Below are positions 2,314 through 27,156 of a DNA stretch of 27,156 nucleotides, one piece after another. The first letter of the stretch is position 1, and the number at the start of each line of letters is the position of its first letter. The notes beneath the pieces were generated by a model. That model was given only the letters and a program-made list of their open reading frames with translations, was not told the origin of the DNA and ran no database searches. Source of the DNA: a virus; IMG/VR virus record IMGVR_UViG_3300043570_000312, positions 1-27,156 of that record, one strand, 5' to 3'. The position numbers were made by a program, and so were the translations under genes.

Positions 2314-4347
2314 ATGTCTAATTATTCAAAATCCACTAACTTTGCAACCAAAGATAATCTTTCGCCTGGCAATCCTCTAAAGATTGTTAAAGGTACTGAG
2401 ATTGACACAGAGTTCAATAACATTGCTACTGCTATAGCAACTAAGACAGATAACTCATCTGCCACCATTACTGGGGGTACGATAAATGGTGCTGTGATCG
2501 GTGGAACTACTGCCGCAGCGGGAACATTTACCAACCTTACTGTTAGCACTGCCGCTACGATTGCTTCTGCCGCCATTAGTGCGGGAACAATCAATGGTGT
2601 GGTAATCGGTGGTTCTTCTGCCCTTGCCATTACTGGCACAAACATTACTGCTACAACAGGCTTTAGTGGCCCATTGACAGGTGCTGTTACTGGTAATGTG
2701 ACGGGTAACGTAACTGGTGCTGTTACAGGCAATGTCACAGGTAACGTAACTGGCAATCTGACAGGCAATGTAACTGCAGCTACTGGCACTTCTACATTCA
2801 ACAATGTGACCATCTCTGGCTCATTGGACATGGACAGTGCTACATCGGCAACCATTACTGGTTTGGCAAGCCCTACAAACGATTCTGATGCGGCTACCAA
2901 GGGTTATGTGGATGCACTGGCTCAAGGTATTGATGCTAAAGCCTCTGTGGTTGCGGCTACTACTGCAAACATCACTTTGTCTGGCGCACAAACTATTGAT
3001 GGCATATCGATTGTTGCGGGTGATCGGGTCTTGGTTAAAGACCAATCAACTGCTTCTAATAATGGTATTTACTTGTGTGCAACAGGTTCATGGACACGCA
3101 CAACAGATGCGGATACTTATGCTGAGTTGGTGGCGGCTTTTACCTTTGTTGAAAAAGGCACAACTAACGCTGATTCTGGCTTTATCTGCACAATAGATGC
3201 AGGTGGAACATTGGGAAGCACATCAATCACTTGGGCGCAGTTCTCAGGTGCAGGTCAGATTACTGCGGGTGATGGTCTTACAAAGACAGGTAATACTCTA
3301 AATGTAGGCACTGCATCCTCTAGCCGTATTGTTGTCAATTCGGACAACATCGATTTGGCTTCTTCTGGTGTTACACCAGGCACTTACCAATCTGTGACTT
3401 TTGACACTTATGGTCGTGCAACGGCAGGAACGAATCCTACAACGATTGCTGGCTATAACATTACAAATGCTTATACCAAAACTGAAATAGATTCGATATT
3501 TGGCTCGACTACTGCTGCGGCTACTTCTGCCTCTAATGCGGCTACAAGCGCTTCAAACGCATCAACAAGTGCCTCAAATGCTTCTACAAGTGCAAGCAAT
3601 GCGGCAACAAGTGAAACCAATGCGGCAGCTTCATACGATGCTTTTGATGACAGATACTTAGGTTCTAAGTCTTCTGCTCCTAGTGTTGACAATGATGGCA
3701 ATGCTCTGTTGACAGGTGCTTTGTACTGGAACAATTCAGTCAATACTCTGTATGTGTGGACAGGATCGGCATGGACTCAGGCGGCATTTACTGCCTCTGG
3801 CTTTGCTACTTTGACAGGTGTTGAAACCCTGACAAACAAGACAATTACCTTTGCTGACAATACGCTAACCAATGTTGCAAGCCTTAACACAGCACAGACA
3901 TTCACGGCTACTAAGACTTTCTCAGGTTCATCATCAGCTACAGCCATTGTTTTAAACGATGCAGCAGAGGTTGCTACAGTATCAGCAACTGCGGCTACAG
4001 GCACGATTGCCTACGACATTACAACTCAGTCTGTTCTGTACTACACCTCTAACGCAAGTGCTAACTGGACAGTTAACTTCAGAGGCTCTAGCGGTACTTC
4101 ACTAGATACTTTGATGAGTACAGGTCAATCAATGACTGTGGCTTTCTTGGTGACTCAAGGCTCTACGGCTTACTACAACTCTGCTGTGCAAGTTGATGGC
4201 ACTACATCAGGCGTTACAACTAGGTGGTTAGGTGGTGCGCCTACTGCGGGTAATGCTAGTGGCATTGATTCGTACCGCTATCTCATTATCAAGACAGGTA
4301 GTGCTACTTTCACAGTCTTGGCAAGCAACACACAATTCAAAGCCTAA
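2314..4347 (+). CDS. Tail fibre protein with low-complexity shaft
   Basis: The 677-aa product has a conserved-looking N-terminus (TEIDTEFNNIATAIATKTD), expected to anchor the fibre to the tail. It then has glycine/threonine repeats of TGNV type (about residues 121-155), further beta-rich segments, and an alanine/serine heptad-like stretch built on SASNAAT (about residues 400-440) that should form a trimeric coiled coil. The C-terminus (SYRYLIIKTGSATFTVLAS) is a beta-rich tip. An AGGA ribosome site lies 7 nt before the ATG. It probably contacts the host surface. Repeats of this kind recombine easily, so length may vary between relatives. Confidence 0.75.
   Translation: MSNYSKSTNFATKDNLSPGNPLKIVKGTEIDTEFNNIATAIATKTDNSSATITGGTINGAVIGGTTAAAGTFTNLTVSTAATIASAAISAGTINGVVIGGSSALAITGTNITATTGFSGPLTGAVTGNVTGNVTGAVTGNVTGNVTGNLTGNVTAATGTSTFNNVTISGSLDMDSATSATITGLASPTNDSDAATKGYVDALAQGIDAKASVVAATTANITLSGAQTIDGISIVAGDRVLVKDQSTASNNGIYLCATGSWTRTTDADTYAELVAAFTFVEKGTTNADSGFICTIDAGGTLGSTSITWAQFSGAGQITAGDGLTKTGNTLNVGTASSSRIVVNSDNIDLASSGVTPGTYQSVTFDTYGRATAGTNPTTIAGYNITNAYTKTEIDSIFGSTTAAATSASNAATSASNASTSASNASTSASNAATSETNAAASYDAFDDRYLGSKSSAPSVDNDGNALLTGALYWNNSVNTLYVWTGSAWTQAAFTASGFATLTGVETLTNKTITFADNTLTNVASLNTAQTFTATKTFSGSSSATAIVLNDAAEVATVSATAATGTIAYDITTQSVLYYTSNASANWTVNFRGSSGTSLDTLMSTGQSMTVAFLVTQGSTAYYNSAVQVDGTTSGVTTRWLGGAPTAGNASGIDSYRYLIIKTGSATFTVLASNTQFKA
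2676..2771 (+). repeat. Eight tandem 12-nt units inside tail fibre
   Basis: Eight consecutive imperfect copies of a 12-nt unit close to ACAGGTAATGTG encode TGNV/TGAV four-residue repeats in the fibre shaft. The frame is kept throughout, so copy-number change would lengthen or shorten the shaft without breaking the gene. Confidence 0.85.
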
Positions 4348-4925
4348 TGAACACCGCCTACGTTTACACGCTGACAGACCCTAGAAATGGGATGCCCTTT
4401 TACGTTGGTAAGGGTGTGGGTAGACGTTGCCATTTTCATGCTTGGGAAGCTAAGAATTCTGATAAACCAACATTTAAACTGAACAAGATTCGTAAGATTC
4501 AAAGTCTTGGTTTAGACATTGTTGTGCGTAAGGTTGAGGAAAACGTAAGCCATGAGCAAGCCAAAGAACTTGAATGTTTCTTAATTGCTGAAATGCGTGG
4601 GTTTGGCATTGATTTAACAAACGCAACTGATGGTGGCGATGGAACTGAAGGTTATAAACATACCGCAGAAACACTTGCTAAAACTAGACATGAGTGGACT
4701 GATGAACAAAAACAACGTATCAGCAATTCGCTCAAAGGTAAAAGTAACCCTTGTACTGAACAACGCAGACAAGCTATTATTGCTGGAACAACTGGCGTAA
4801 AGAAATCAACAACAATCAATATGCGTAAGCCAAAGCGTAAAGAACAATGCCCACATTGCAAAATAATGGCAAGTGGCGGTAACTTAGCTAAGTGGCACAT
4901 GAATAACTGCAAAAGCAAGGAATAA
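4347..4925 (+). CDS. GIY-YIG homing endonuclease with NUMOD and zinc-finger-like tail
   Basis: This 192-aa protein carries a GIY-YIG nuclease core at the N-terminus: VYTL (6-9), FYVGKG (18-23), an arginine pair at 26-27, the candidate metal-binding glutamates E75/E77 and the downstream LTNATDGGDG element. Residues about 103-132 look like a NUMOD DNA-binding motif (HTAETLAKTR ... ISNSLKGKS). The C-terminus holds a probable zinc site (CPHC at 168-171, then H184 and C188). It starts inside the stop of the tail-fibre gene (TAATG) and is followed 2 nt later by another fibre-type gene. It therefore looks like a free-standing mobile endonuclease lodged in the fibre module. No intron or intein is visible. 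Confidence 0.85.
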   Translation: MNTAYVYTLTDPRNGMPFYVGKGVGRRCHFHAWEAKNSDKPTFKLNKIRKIQSLGLDIVVRKVEENVSHEQAKELECFLIAEMRGFGIDLTNATDGGDGTEGYKHTAETLAKTRHEWTDEQKQRISNSLKGKSNPCTEQRRQAIIAGTTGVKKSTTINMRKPKRKEQCPHCKIMASGGNLAKWHMNNCKSKE

Positions 4926-22456: not shown

Positions 22457-22668
22457 TGGCATACAGTAGAAAAAACATATCCAATGCAGGAGACAGAGTT
22501 GTTCTAGAGAAAGCCGAAGCAAGGGAAATATACCGAACTTGGCAATCCCTGAGAGACAATGATTTTGTTCGTGCCAGGCTTGAGCGTTGCGAAAAGGTCT
22601 ATGGATCAGGAGCAAGAGATCGGGTCAGGTTTTATATGCGTCAAATGAAAGAAGGACAAATTGAATGA
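22456..22668 (+). CDS. Small basic unknown protein
   Basis: The 70-aa product is helical and basic (RKNISNAGDRVVLEKAEARE, then RVRFYMRQMKEGQIE). I have an impression of short phage proteins upstream of methyltransferase or nuclease genes but cannot name a function. Its end overlaps the starts of both the methyltransferase and the overlapping ORF, and AAGGA near its end serves them. A regulatory palindrome overlaps its own start codon. Confidence 0.55.
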   Translation: MAYSRKNISNAGDRVVLEKAEAREIYRTWQSLRDNDFVRARLERCEKVYGSGARDRVRFYMRQMKEGQIE

Positions 22669-23632
22669 GTTGGCTTTATTCGCAGGTGCTGGTGGAGGCA
22701 TTCTTGGGGGACATCTCCTTGGATGGAGAACAGTCTGTGCAGTCGAGTGGGAGCAATACCCCGCAAGCGTACTGTGCGCCAGACAAAATGACGGGCTTCT
22801 CCCGCCTTTCCCGATTTGGGATGACGTACAAACCTTTAAAGGAGAGCCTTGGAGAGGAATTGTTGACGTTGTATCTGGCGGCTTTCCATGCACCGACATT
22901 TCCGCAGCAGGAAAAGGAGCAGGAATTGATGGAGAAGCCTCTGGAATGTGGCGAGAAATGGCGAGGATCATTCACGAAGTACGACCCCGATACGTCTTTG
23001 TGGAGAACTCACCAATGCTCACTTCTAGGGGACTTGGAAGAGTTCTCGGAGACCTGGCCGCAATGGGGTTTGATGCGAAATGGGGAGTGTTGGGAGCAGC
23101 GGACGTTGGAGCGCCACATCAGAGGGACAGGATATGGATTGTCGCCAAATGGCGTGGACAGCTTCCACACGCCCAACACGACAGGATTAGATGGTGGGAG
23201 CAACAGCAGGAAAGCATTAAAACAACGCATCGACAAATGGCCAACTCCAACGTCATCGGATTGGATGAACCCAAAACAAAACGGGATCGAACTCACGAAC
23301 AACAGATTTGTCAGAACGAGCTTGACTACGGGAACGAAATTCGGGGCGAAGCTATCAGATGCGGTCAACTTGGAAATGAAGAAGAATTGGCCAACCCCAC
23401 AAGTAGCGGACTACAAGGACAGGGGAAATCTGAGCAATCCATCAATTCAAAGACGTATGGAGATTGGGAAACAAGTCAATTTGCAGATGTGTGTGAGTCA
23501 GACTTCTGGGCAACTGAACCCGATGTGGGTAGAGTGGTTAATGGGATGGCCTCAAGGGTGGACAGAATTAAAGCCCTCGGAAATGGACAAGTCCCCTTGT
23601 GTGCAGCTACCGCATGGAGAATCCTAAAATGA
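22661..23632 (+). CDS. C5 cytosine DNA methyltransferase
   Basis: The 323-aa protein has all major m5C methyltransferase motifs: motif I at the N-terminus (LALFAGAGGGILGGHLLGW, 4-22), motif IV GGFPC with catalytic Cys77, motif VI VENS at 114-117, motif VIII APHQRDRIWIVA at 151-162, and motif X GNGQVP at 307-312. The target-recognition region between VIII and X is polar and variable, as usual. The only usable start is TTG 22661, since motif I begins at residue 4 and a stop lies just upstream. It likely protects phage DNA from restriction. A second long ORF overlaps it in the +1 frame. Confidence 0.85.
   Translation: MNELALFAGAGGGILGGHLLGWRTVCAVEWEQYPASVLCARQNDGLLPPFPIWDDVQTFKGEPWRGIVDVVSGGFPCTDISAAGKGAGIDGEASGMWREMARIIHEVRPRYVFVENSPMLTSRGLGRVLGDLAAMGFDAKWGVLGAADVGAPHQRDRIWIVAKWRGQLPHAQHDRIRWWEQQQESIKTTHRQMANSNVIGLDEPKTKRDRTHEQQICQNELDYGNEIRGEAIRCGQLGNEEELANPTSSGLQGQGKSEQSINSKTYGDWETSQFADVCESDFWATEPDVGRVVNGMASRVDRIKALGNGQVPLCAATAWRILK
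22665..23627 (+). CDS. Long ORF fully overlapping the methyltransferase gene (+1 frame)
   Basis: This 320-codon frame is open from ATG 22665 to TAA 23627. The AAGGA site at 22652-22656 fits its ATG (8 nt) better than the methyltransferase TTG (4 nt). The predicted protein is not typical shadow sequence. It begins with MSWLYSQVLVEAF and contains SFTKYDPDTSLWRTHQCSLL, SETWPQWGLMRNGECW, two WPTP motifs in the middle and a Trp-rich end (NPMWVEWLMGWPQGWTELKP). These match my memory of an unnamed protein family seen in phages and bacteria near methyltransferases. Function unknown. That both frames are translated is inferred. Confidence 0.55.
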   Translation: MSWLYSQVLVEAFLGDISLDGEQSVQSSGSNTPQAYCAPDKMTGFSRLSRFGMTYKPLKESLGEELLTLYLAAFHAPTFPQQEKEQELMEKPLECGEKWRGSFTKYDPDTSLWRTHQCSLLGDLEEFSETWPQWGLMRNGECWEQRTLERHIRGTGYGLSPNGVDSFHTPNTTGLDGGSNSRKALKQRIDKWPTPTSSDWMNPKQNGIELTNNRFVRTSLTTGTKFGAKLSDAVNLEMKKNWPTPQVADYKDRGNLSNPSIQRRMEIGKQVNLQMCVSQTSGQLNPMWVEWLMGWPQGWTELKPSEMDKSPCVQLPHGES

Positions 23633-24373: not shown

Positions 24374-24696
24374 GCGACAATCCCCACAAGGCCATACAAT
24401 TCTTGATTGACACGGCAGAACCCTATAGCAAGGCTAAAGCTAGTCGAATCTACCTTGAGGGTTTCCTTAAATCACGCAAGGCTCAGTTAATGAGCCAGGC
24501 AGGGACTGAGGTTTTGGGTAAACAAGAGACCTATGCCTATGCCCATGCAGATTATGTAGGCATCTTAGAAGGCATCAGGGAAGCCGTAGAGATCGAGGAA
24601 AAGCATCGTTGGATGATGACCGCAGCCCAAGCTAGGATCGAGGTCTGGCGAACAGAACAGTACTCAGCCCGAATGGAAATTAAAGCAACCCAATGA
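24370..24696 (+). CDS. Helical phage protein of unknown function
   Basis: The 108-aa protein is almost wholly helical (KASRIYLEGFLKSRKAQLMS, then AYAHADYVGILEGIREAVE and a final charged helix with AAQARIEVWRTEQYSAR). I associate this pattern with a conserved protein next to HNH or Ref-like nuclease genes, without an assigned role. It overlaps both neighbours by ATGA junctions. Confidence 0.65.
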   Translation: MSDNPHKAIQFLIDTAEPYSKAKASRIYLEGFLKSRKAQLMSQAGTEVLGKQETYAYAHADYVGILEGIREAVEIEEKHRWMMTAAQARIEVWRTEQYSARMEIKATQ

Positions 24697-24974
24697 ACAA
24701 CAAGCTGAACGCAAAAGAGAGATTGCACCTGGCAAGGGTTAAAAGTCTCCCATGTTCAGTATGCGAGGCATCAGGGCCATCAGAAGCCCATCACTTTAAG
24801 CAGGGTCTCCAGTACACCTGTATAGCCCTATGTGTAGACTGCCACCGGAATCCTGTACTTGGATGGCACGGGCAAAAGAGGGCATGGTCGATAAGGAAGA
24901 TGGATCAGATAGAGGCACTCAACGAGACCATCAGGAATCTCATCGAGCATAGCCCCTCTAGATCACCATTCTAG
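24693..24974 (+). CDS. Ref-like / HNH-type zinc nuclease
   Basis: The 93-aa protein has the layout of RecA-dependent Ref-like nucleases: a basic start, CSVC (21-24), EAHH (31-34) and CVDCHRN ... WHG. This gives a Cys/His zinc site and a His-metal active-site candidate. Phage P1 Ref cuts DNA near RecA filaments. It ends the rightward replication block and is coupled to the helical protein upstream. The specific family is likely but not certain; a generic HNH nuclease is the alternative. Confidence 0.65.
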   Translation: MNNKLNAKERLHLARVKSLPCSVCEASGPSEAHHFKQGLQYTCIALCVDCHRNPVLGWHGQKRAWSIRKMDQIEALNETIRNLIEHSPSRSPF

Positions 24975-25094: not shown

Positions 25095-25113
25095 TGTTTA
25101 CACCCTTAGAGTC

Positions 25114-25128
25114 ACTAGTTCCGCTAGT
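25114..25128. repeat. Inverted repeat ACTAG-N5-CTAGT
   Basis: A perfect 5-bp inverted repeat with centre TTCCG lies upstream of the tiny minus-strand ORF and 115 nt before the next rightward gene. It may be a binding site or part of a weak hairpin. It is unlike the TAGGG family. Confidence 0.3.
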
Positions 25129-25151
25129 CCGGTTAAAGGAATATTAATTCA

Positions 25152-25195
25152 TTGACAGACAAAAAAAATAGGGATAAACCCTAATAAAGTACAAT
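25152..25195 (+). promoter_or_regulatory. Control region with TTGACA, palindrome and TACAAT
   Basis: A consensus -35 TTGACA lies at 25152-25157. The perfect palindrome TAGGG-ATAAA-CCCTA is at 25169-25183, and TACAAT at 25190-25195 could be a -10, but it is 32 nt from TTGACA. A 17-nt spacing would put TAAACC at 25175 as the -10, inside the palindrome. Either way the palindrome overlaps promoter parts. The ribosome site GGAGAGG precedes ATG 25229. Confidence 0.5.
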
Positions 25196-25228
25196 TAATT
25201 TAATTTAATTACTGGAGAGGTTAGAAGC

Positions 25229-25459
25229 ATGGCTAGACCCCCAAAGGCAGATACAGTCCAGTTCCGAAGAAAACTAGACAACCCAAAGCTGCAAATACTT
25301 TTATCCGCTGGACAAGGCAACATTAGCCAAGGTTTCGAGAACTTGTTAGCCCTGTACCATCATCTCCACTCTATAGGGTATAGAACAGAAGACCCATTGG
25401 ATACAATAGGGTTCGTAACTAACCTATCCGAGGATAAAGGATCAGCCCTTAACAGATGA
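25229..25459 (+). CDS. Small basic protein, possible regulator
   Basis: The 76-aa protein starts with a basic, AT-hook-like end (MARPPKADTVQFRRKL) and has a predicted helical core with NISQGFENLLALYHHLH. The pattern seems to recur in small phage proteins that are thought to bind DNA. It stands alone between two groups of TAGGG palindromes, which makes it a candidate for the protein that binds them. Nothing shows this directly. Confidence 0.55.
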   Translation: MARPPKADTVQFRRKLDNPKLQILLSAGQGNISQGFENLLALYHHLHSIGYRTEDPLDTIGFVTNLSEDKGSALNR

Positions 25460-25617
25460 ATCTATAGGGAGTTAGATAAGGAATAGATAGAGGGAAGGAA
25501 GGGTAACTGAAATGGAATTGGTGGGAATTGAGATTGATTCAAGTACACCCGAAAAGCACCCTCCAACTCTTTTGCTCTTTCTCCACTTAACATAACAACT
25601 TAACATAACGCAAAACT

Positions 25618-25678
25618 TAGGGTAAACCCTTAGGTGAAAACCCTACCCTTAGGTATAAACCCTTAAGGGTAAACCCTA
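25618..25678. repeat. Array of four TAGGG-N5-CCCTA-like palindromes
   Basis: Four imperfect 15-bp sites start at 25618, 25631, 25650 and 25664. Their half-sites are TAGGG/CCTTA, TAGGT/CCCTA, TAGGT/CCCTT and TAAGG/CCCTA, with A-rich centres. Spacings are 13, 19 and 14 nt. The perfect single copies elsewhere suggest one protein binds all of them. Confidence 0.6.
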
Positions 25679-25697
25679 GGTGGATGGGCATACAGTA

Positions 25698-25721
25698 GGG
25701 GGGGGGAGGGGGTAGGTTGGG
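25698..25721 (+). repeat. G-rich tract, G-quadruplex candidate
   Basis: Runs of nine G, five G, two G and three G occur within 24 nt, separated by one to two bases. It could form a G-quadruplex in single-stranded DNA or RNA, although one run has only two G. It is the longest homopolymer in the window and follows the palindrome array. Confidence 0.5.
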
Positions 25722-25804
25722 TCTGTAGATATTTGTGTACCCGCCTATCCTCTGAAAAGGTAAAAAAGGTAATATCGGTAATCACTTCCTAGAAAGGGAA
25801 AAAA

Positions 25805-26176
25805 GTGGAAACATTAAAGAGAGGTCGAGGAAGGCCCAAGGGAAGCGTTAAGATGACCATACAGAGGTTTGCTGACAATCCACCCCTAGTACTACCTAAG
25901 ACAGACCATCAACGTCTCAAAGAGCTTAAAGAGCTTATGATTAGGTCTGGAGGTAAGGATGTGGCTCAGAAGGTTATTGAGATAGCCCTTAATGATGAGC
26001 ATCCACATCAATTGGTAGCACTCAAGATGTGTCTTGATAGGACTCTTCCTGTTTCTTTGTTTGAAAAGGATAAGTCTCAAAGAAGTGCCGTAACCATCAA
26101 TATCACTGGTTTAGGACAAGAACCAATGGTAGTGGACACTGAACAACCTGAAGATGTAGAGGCTAAATATGGCTGA
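25805..26176 (+). CDS. terS: Terminase small subunit candidate
   Basis: This 123-aa protein starts with GTG, with AAGGGA about 6 nt upstream. The N-terminus is an AT-hook-like basic segment (KRGRGRPKGS), followed by helical segments that could form the DNA-binding and oligomer core (KELKELMIRSGGKDVAQKVI), and an acidic end. It directly precedes and overlaps the terminase large-subunit gene by 8 nt, the normal order. TerS recognises the packaging site, which often lies in or near its gene. The call relies mainly on that order. Confidence 0.65.
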   Translation: METLKRGRGRPKGSVKMTIQRFADNPPLVLPKTDHQRLKELKELMIRSGGKDVAQKVIEIALNDEHPHQLVALKMCLDRTLPVSLFEKDKSQRSAVTINITGLGQEPMVVDTEQPEDVEAKYG

Positions 26177-27156
26177 TCTGAACTTTAGTCTCTTGCCCTG
26201 GCAACAAGAGGTATTTAAGGATACGACTAGGTTTAAGGTTGTGGCTGCTGGGCGTAGGTGCGGTAAGAGTAGGATGGCGGCAGTTACCCTACTGATAGAA
26301 GGACTCAAGTGTCCACAAGGCTCTGCGGTTCTCTACGTTAGTCCCACTATGGGACAATCAAGACAGATTATTTGGGACTTACTGCTAGACCTTGGTAGAG
26401 AGGTTATTCAGAGCAGTCATGTAAACAACTTGGACATTACCCTGATAAACGGGGCTAGGATATACGTTCGTGGTGCGGATAGACCTGATACCCTTCGTGG
26501 TGTCTCATTGACCTATGCCGTTCTCGATGAGGTGGCAGACATTAAACCCGAGGCTTGGGAACAGGTCATTCGGGCAAGTTTGTCTGATAAACGGGGGAGA
26601 GCACTCTTTATTGGCACTCCTAAAGGTAGAAATTGGTTCTACGATACCTTCAAACTAGGCGAGTCAGAGGATGATCCTGATTGGAAGTCGTGGCACTTCA
26701 CCACTGCTGATAACCCCTTGATTGACCAAGCAGAGATAGATTCCGCTAAAAAGACCCTAAGTTCCTTCGCTTTCAAGCAAGAGTTTATGGCTTCTTTCAC
26801 CAATGCGGGTTCGGATATTTTCAAGGAAGAGTGGATCAAATACGGGGTAAAGCCTGAGCATGGAAGCTATTACATCGCTGTTGACCTGGCAGGATTCGAG
26901 GAAGTTGCCAAACAAGCAGCCAATTCTAAGAAGCGTCTAGACGAGTCTGCTATCTCAATCGTTAAGGTGACAGACGATGGGAAGTGGTTTGTTGAGAAGA
27001 TTGAACATGGGCGTTGGGACATCCGAGAGACCGCTTCTAAGATACTGATTGCCATTCGGGACTACCGCCCTTTAAGTGTGGGGATAGAGAGGGGGGCGCT
27101 AAAGAACGCTGTTTTGCCCTATCTGAGTGACTTGATGCGTAAGAACAACACCTATG
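26169..27156 (+). CDS. terL: Terminase large subunit (cut by the window end)
   Basis: A frame from ATG 26169 stays open to the window edge, giving 329 codons. It has the packaging ATPase motifs: Walker A-type AAGRRCGKSRMA (about residues 26-37), Walker B YAVLDEVAD (about 116-124) and the coupling motif IGTPKG (about 148-153). The start of the nuclease domain follows: AVDLAG (about 239-244) and SVGIERG, carrying acidic metal ligands. It packs DNA into the prohead and cuts it. The rest of the nuclease domain is outside the window. Confidence 0.9.
   Translation, partial: MADLNFSLLPWQQEVFKDTTRFKVVAAGRRCGKSRMAAVTLLIEGLKCPQGSAVLYVSPTMGQSRQIIWDLLLDLGREVIQSSHVNNLDITLINGARIYVRGADRPDTLRGVSLTYAVLDEVADIKPEAWEQVIRASLSDKRGRALFIGTPKGRNWFYDTFKLGESEDDPDWKSWHFTTADNPLIDQAEIDSAKKTLSSFAFKQEFMASFTNAGSDIFKEEWIKYGVKPEHGSYYIAVDLAGFEEVAKQAANSKKRLDESAISIVKVTDDGKWFVEKIEHGRWDIRETASKILIAIRDYRPLSVGIERGALKNAVLPYLSDLMRKNNTY

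Follow-up and report, generated by a model that had tools for sequence, protein, structure and literature searches.

The window, by which we mean the whole 27,156-bp stretch that was analysed (IMG/VR virus record IMGVR_UViG_3300043570_000312, from a freshwater phage), carries in its right part replication and recombination genes and a RusA-like resolvase gene (PHROG 140), followed in order by an HNH-like gene, a small conserved gene, an array of palindromes, a G-rich tract and the two terminase genes. The small terminase gene, terS (25805–26176, + strand, GTG start), lies directly before the large terminase gene, terL (26169–27156, + strand, cut by the end of the window), whose product matches PHROG 2 (E=2.4e-46) and Pfam Terminase_6N (E=5.9e-15). 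TerS bears an AT-hook-like stretch, RGRGRPKG, at its N-terminus; the Pfam AT_hook match is weak (E=0.19), and RGRP is present in most of 16 homologues. A comparison of TerS with the PDB gave no match at E≤1, and its AF2 model was of low confidence, too poor for structural assignment. The protein encoded at 24693–24974 (+ strand) was read as HNH-like by eye, from its CxxC/HH/CxxC arrangement, its sole match being PHROG 1588 (E=2.9e-14), a PHROG of unknown function; of 159 relatives, 113 encode a homologue on the upstream side of the tract. The small conserved protein at 25229–25459 (+ strand), possibly a DNA-binding protein of the ribbon-helix-helix type, has homologues in 146/159 relatives, where they lie ∼450 nt ahead of the tract. 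Its AF2 model consists of two helices (pLDDT 75), and the ribbon-helix-helix assignment found no family, PDB or fold match. As to the host, TerL has a match of 82% in a betaproteobacterial MAG contig that may be phage contamination; a betaproteobacterial host would fit the LexA and Fur formats seen in the arrays of relatives (see below).

A preliminary description had placed an array of palindrome-like sites and a G-rich stretch at 25618–25721, and both were confirmed. The nine-G run is exact (25698–25706, then A and G5) and precedes the small terminase gene as described, with terL next, whereas the gap between array and G-run, given as 20 nt, measured about 17 nt. The palindrome-like sites comprise two copies of AGGGTAAACCCT, one perfect CCCTTAAGGG and degenerate copies, but the dyads are mostly imperfect, and symmetry by itself is no rarity, an equally good score being reached by 147 of 2257 windows. 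Allowing ≤1 mismatch, GGGTAAACCC has seven matches in the window versus 0.95 expected, a number reached in none of 100 shuffles. The G-run is the sole run of at least seven G or C in the window; among Markov windows (n=300), G7AG5 occurred in none and a run of at least nine in 20. The feature is also wider than first noted, with a tandem ACTTAACATAAC upstream (25585–25609) and a conserved part that continues to about 25769.

A TerL search yielded 80 close relatives of the window. In 132 related contexts, the stretch from the G-tract through GAAAAAGCTAAA is highly conserved, with runs of positions at 90–100%, and the 110 nt upstream of the G-tract show no conserved column pattern. The left arm of the conserved element (25698–25769) is the G-tract itself, G9-A-G5-T (25698–25713, + strand; 90–100% conserved positions in 132 relatives), the first G block of which varies in length from 7 to 10 among relatives. 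It is followed by a conserved box, GATATTTGTG (25728–25737, + strand; at least 90% conserved in 132 relatives), and by a C-rich stretch, TACCCGCCTATCCT (25738–25751), which is predicted to be the cleavage zone in light of the contig ends of relatives and of the HK97 and actinophage cuts at an equivalent distance. The element closes with an A-tract, GAAAAGGTAAAAAAGG (25754–25769), the predicted binding site of the small terminase, as suggested by its fixed offset and by the parallel with the TerS site of HK97: the GAAAAAG of this tract stands at a fixed offset in 111 of 114 relatives, and at the same offset in the window. The AT-hook-like RGRGRPKG of TerS would suit such a target. Among 20 long records, which were selected for holding the tract, 19 have a single copy and one two-unit record has two. 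A stem-loop in the element was considered and rejected, the single-strand DNA fold being no better than that of shuffles (z −0.5). Two assemblies are unusual at this site: a 68,218-bp contig (G007; L074, L079) comprises two genome units whose elements, 34,245 nt apart, differ slightly, and is a chimeric assembly or a concatemer, and at the start of contig L447 a terS fragment in inverted orientation is fused to the predicted cos zone, probably an assembly artefact.

Contig ends in the window's own family fall inside the conserved element. Both ends of IMGVR_UViG_3300049629_000056 (34,904 bp; TerL 98% identical) lie within it, the left end reading CCTATACCGAAAAAGC and then terS, and the right end reading ...G9AG5TAGCGTCTGTGTGTGGATATTTGTGGTACATCCCCTA, closing with ...GGTACATCCCCTA after the G-tract. 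Counted from the start of the last seven Gs (25700), these ends are at +47 (left) and +50 (right), and of two contigs from other samples one starts at +45 and one ends at +48, all of which corresponds to about 25744–25749 in the window; these fixed ends are assembly ends of relatives, not reads and not ends of the window's own record. Roughly 30 contig or stretch ends lie within −200 to +300, in a tally counted by hand that may include some stretch limits rather than contig ends, and four lie within +45 to +50 versus about 0.4 expected at even density. There is a small chance that the ends in this family instead mark places where assembly broke off in difficult G-rich sequence. Most family contigs read through the site (in complete scans, 1/47 starts there and 2/89 end there), as is expected, though it is no proof, from intracellular DNA. 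Closed contigs and the spacing of the two tracts in the two-unit contig put the unit genome length of relatives at about 34.0–34.5 kb. The two ends of the 34,904-bp contig overlap by 4 nt, with a 2-nt difference between the two alleles. A 3′ overhang of the HK97 type would leave a gap between contig ends after end repair; since the ends here share four bases, the overhang, viewed after end repair, would not seem to be of the HK97 kind.

Cultured phages with an equivalent site were reached via neighbouring genes and by inspecting HK97; Blast of the element against cultured phages gave nothing useful, and the record ends of SSU5 hold no such G-tract. The HK97 record ends with ...CAAATGAGAATGAATCGCATCAGGGCAGGGGGGGGGATCAAATCTTCAAAACCTTTGCCCCAAATGACCGCCGCCAAA and begins with GTTTGAATTTAACGCTAACCCGATTTTTTTAG, the last 10 nt of HK75 are annotated as cos, and in HK106 the gp74 gene lies shortly upstream of the same stretch. 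Akin to the window, members of the Hendrixvirinae (HK97, HK75, mEp390, mEp235 and Cronobacter ENT39118) feature a G-tract, a C-rich cut zone and an A-tract with terS next, and the order gp74-cos-terS of the HK97 group matches that of HNH-like gene, G-tract, cut zone, A-tract, terS and terL in the window. HK97 is reported to have a 10-nt 3′ overhang. Its TerS binds at +15 to +29 to the right of the cut, a site at which an A-tract and a G at +21 are required, and gp74, an HNH protein, stimulates cleavage (PMC11331095). By comparison, the A-tract of the window would lie on the same side of the cut as the HK97 small-terminase site. The G-rich tract lies 39–45 nt before the overhang in seven HK97-group phages and about 40–51 nt left of the cut in HK97-group phages and actinophages, to which the window element is comparable; a G-tract about 40–50 nt left of the cut is a criterion from this analysis, not a published one. 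The two systems differ in that the TerS of the window is shorter, appears to be another protein and matches nothing detectable in the PDB, and in that the window family has its tract, G7-10AG5, at fixed spacing and a large variable dyad array. In the cos of lambda, a left element, a nick site and a terminase-binding site succeed one another as cosQ, cosN and cosB. The likeness to the window is an analogy of functional order only, in which the position of the G-tract would be comparable to that of cosQ; unlike the window, lambda has no G-tract, and its overhang is a 5′ overhang of 12.

Cohesive ends of actinophages provided a second comparison. Two tract-holding contigs stop precisely at +39 from the start of the tract, at ...GCAT, and one of these, of 43,659 bp, begins at its other end with CCTAAAAATTT. 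A search with the right-end gene retrieved a third contig that stops at ...GCAT, together with another that reads through, GCAT-CGCCCAGCCCT-CCAAAAATG, and the cultured relatives of the right-end gene of the 43,659-bp contig are actinobacteriophages. At their ends, the records of HotFries, RosaAsantewaa, Schwartz33 and Hankly show a G-tract, which in HotFries is an uninterrupted G-run, then a C-rich stretch and then TGCAT, after which come CGCCGCCCT (HotFries, Schwartz33), CGCCCGCCT (RosaAsantewaa) or CGCCGGCCT (Hankly), and all four begin with an A/T-rich stretch after CC(T). Overhangs of 9 nt at the 3′ end have been reported for HotFries (CGCCGCCCT; PMC6256688), for the Gordonia DJ phage Pherobrine (CGCCGCCCT; PMC9753669) and for Arthrobacter AU phages (CGCCGGCCT; PMC11320949), the latter two reports concerning relatives of Schwartz33 and Hankly. 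The layout at these reported overhangs indicates that the G-tract element is the cos site in these actinophages, and the actinophage-like metagenomic contigs stop where the lost 3′ overhang would start, with a gap between their ends. The cos sites of Streptomyces BI, Gordonia DJ and Arthrobacter AU phages resemble the window in having G5-7AG5T or a pure G-run, a C-rich stretch and an A/T tract, with a GCAT box and then the cut between the latter two; unlike the window, they have a perfect or near-perfect G/C hairpin and other right-end genes, and no array was seen. The right genome end of the actinophage-like contigs also encodes an 881-aa protein (L307:338-2983) with the motif SGADFDGDTV and a weak RdRP match, possibly a YonO-like RNA polymerase.

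A scan for GGGGGGGAGGGGGT returned at least about 118 stretches, many of them unrelated to the window. Among the matches listed, 23 of 43 long ORFs downstream of the tract belong to terminase family PHROG 2, the remaining ones to other terminase families or, in some cases, not to terminases, and some G-tract loci have no terminase directly downstream. An A/T run of at least six starts at +55 to +68 from the tract start in 47 of 60 non-redundant contexts among these matches, versus 7.1 on average and 14 at most in control windows, and 12.5% of other G-rich tracts (n=505) have such a run at the equivalent place. A box of the GCAT/CGAT/TTGG type precedes the A/T run by 6–18 nt in 34 of 51 cases (shuffled mean 10, maximum 18). 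The composite spacing of tract, box and A/T run is non-random, and judged by sequence the layout of the window recurs in unrelated uncultured phages. We found no description of a G-tract/box/A-tract layout shared across phages in the open-access literature.

Taken together, the architecture, its conservation, the fixed ends in relatives, the layout of cultured cos phages and the A-tract need of HK97 make it highly probable that 25698–25769 is a cos site of the HK97 type and of similar construction. Most likely, the genome is cut into unit lengths for packaging at the nine-G tract and the sequence immediately following. On concatemers joined head to tail, the small terminase would bind the A-tract to the right of the cut, and the large terminase would make a staggered cut in the C-rich zone, about 45–50 nt after the start of the G-tract, possibly helped by the HNH protein encoded upstream; the overhang type of the window family is a part of this proposal that we infer. 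If packaging runs in the direction we infer, the G-tract side would become the right end, packaged last, and the A-tract/terS side the left end, packaged first. The G-tract would probably serve as a left-hand recognition or stalling element, and the variable dyad array would sit at the far right of the linear genome as a separate operator-like feature. If the HK97-type cos reading is right, then G-tract, 30–35 nt, box, about 12 nt and A-tract would constitute a genome-end rule for many uncultured phages, packaging mode and a linear genome could be read from sequence alone, even with diverged terminases, and the small-terminase mechanism of HK97 would extend well beyond HK97.

A packaging signal of either the pac or the cos type had been proposed for this locus. 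The cos type is strongly supported, but not in the iterated sites to which the signal had been assigned: these are not conserved, whereas the G-tract and the next 55 nt are. In the headful (pac) alternative, the terminase would start at the site and later cuts would be set by head filling, yielding permuted genomes. The position before terS and terL, the read-through of most contigs and the closed circles among some long relatives would agree with this, but it is contradicted by the fixed unit-length ends, one unit-length relative contig having both its ends at the site, and by a layout that is the same as in phages with cohesive ends, and we consider it highly improbable.

The array spans 25585–25681. 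Its proximal part (25618–25681), variable in relatives, contains AGGGTAAACCCT twice (25619 and 25666), a perfect CCCTTAAGGG at 25660 that overlaps the second of these, and the degenerate copies TAGGTGAAAACCCTA and TAGGTATAAACCCTT. The tandem at 25585–25609 occupies a distal slot that in relatives holds one of four nearly mutually exclusive dyads (75, 18, 17 and 4; two together in 2, none in 16). Over 190 nt upstream, the 132 relatives show combinations of short dyads in 80 different module strings, and all nine pairs with identical +15 to +105 differ in their arrays, on which grounds the array was rejected as a conserved packaging core; it is instead a fast-changing mosaic of operator-like sites at the trailing genome end. 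The proximal part in relatives mixes AGGGTAAACCCT (116 sites in 94 loci; 3 loci in the control region) with GGTAGAAACCCT and with CTGT-N8-ACAG, which has precisely the format of a LexA box and accounts for 70 sites spread over 59 loci, with none in controls; CTGT-ACAG spacers other than 8 account for 0–1 sites. The commonest distal dyad, AAATGAGAATCATTCGCATTTAG, is Fur-box-like, and the 19-mer AATGAGAATCATTCTCATT, which we take to be the Fur consensus, is matched at ≤3 mismatches in 94/132 loci and in no controls. Like the relatives of the window, the HK97 group has a Fur-like dyad just left of the G-tract: 18 of the 20 bases of AAATGAGAATCATTCGCATTTAG are found directly left of the tract in HK97, and the Fur-like match beats nearly all shuffles in 7/7 HK97-group phages (L583, the HK97 right end, and L584–L589). 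We found no mention of a Fur-like box at HK97-group cos sites in the literature searched. In the window itself, the array matches neither LexA nor Fur sites, the array modules are absent from other G-tract families, and the Zur consensus is not enriched in the arrays of this family.

LexA-format and Fur-like sites are shuffled as modules beside cos, for example in L065, L076 and L019, and successive AGGGTAAACCCT sites are often 50 nt apart in relatives. The RNA fold of the array is weak (z −1.95). A specific co-variation of the array with the upstream protein was rejected, the correlation (0.24) being the same as for the terS side (0.23); the protein at 25229–25459 is a candidate binder of AGGGTAAACCCT, not more. 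We entertain, as an idea with more against it than for it, that the array represents exchangeable operators of host regulators (LexA, Fur and others) that would couple packaging termination or terminase transcription to the DNA-damage or metal state of the host. Proteins at the trailing genome end would then act as a roadblock for the motor just before cos, and the same principle would extend to the Fur-like box left of the HK97-group G-tract. Whether host regulators touch packaging is a question that operator cassettes next to cos raise and that can be tested.

The array had also been proposed to switch early to late transcription, which is possible, although no sigma-70-like promoter was found in 25100–25850. 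As an account of the whole site, this would make the array a set of operators for a promoter that reads into terS, with the small upstream protein or host regulators binding these operators and the G-tract incidental. The LexA-format and Fur-like sites in relatives, the conserved small protein and an operator-like site that also precedes its gene (25170–25185) speak for such control, but besides the lack of a promoter it leaves the conserved G-tract, the box, the A-tract and the contig ends unexplained, which renders it very improbable as the sole function; transcription control by the array could hold in addition to cos. A replication origin, also put forward earlier, for example an R-loop origin with the array as iterons and a G-tract like that of mitochondrial CSB II (a G-run with one A, G5AG7, and a resemblance only), can be set aside as scarcely credible, since the A-interrupted G-tract, the AT-rich stretch downstream, the iterated sites upstream and the single copy are offset by a GC skew without a turn at 25.6 kb, by DnaA boxes that are not enriched in the family's arrays, by the lack of conservation of the array and by the equivalent site in cultured phages being cos.

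Further features were noted elsewhere in the window. A lone AGGGATAAACCCTAA at 25170–25185, which precedes the small gene at 25229 by about 45 nt, looks like a terminator on the opposite strand. Among the genes to the left, two ORFs of 323 and 320 aa (22661–23632 and 22665–23627, + strand) cover almost the same stretch in different frames and each have a match to a DNA methyltransferase family (PHROG 363, E=1e-67, and PHROG 1008, E=1e-30), which makes them a gene pair with full overlap. An ORF at 4347–4925, inserted among the tail genes, has by eye only the look of a GIY-YIG endonuclease with a DNA-binding tail.
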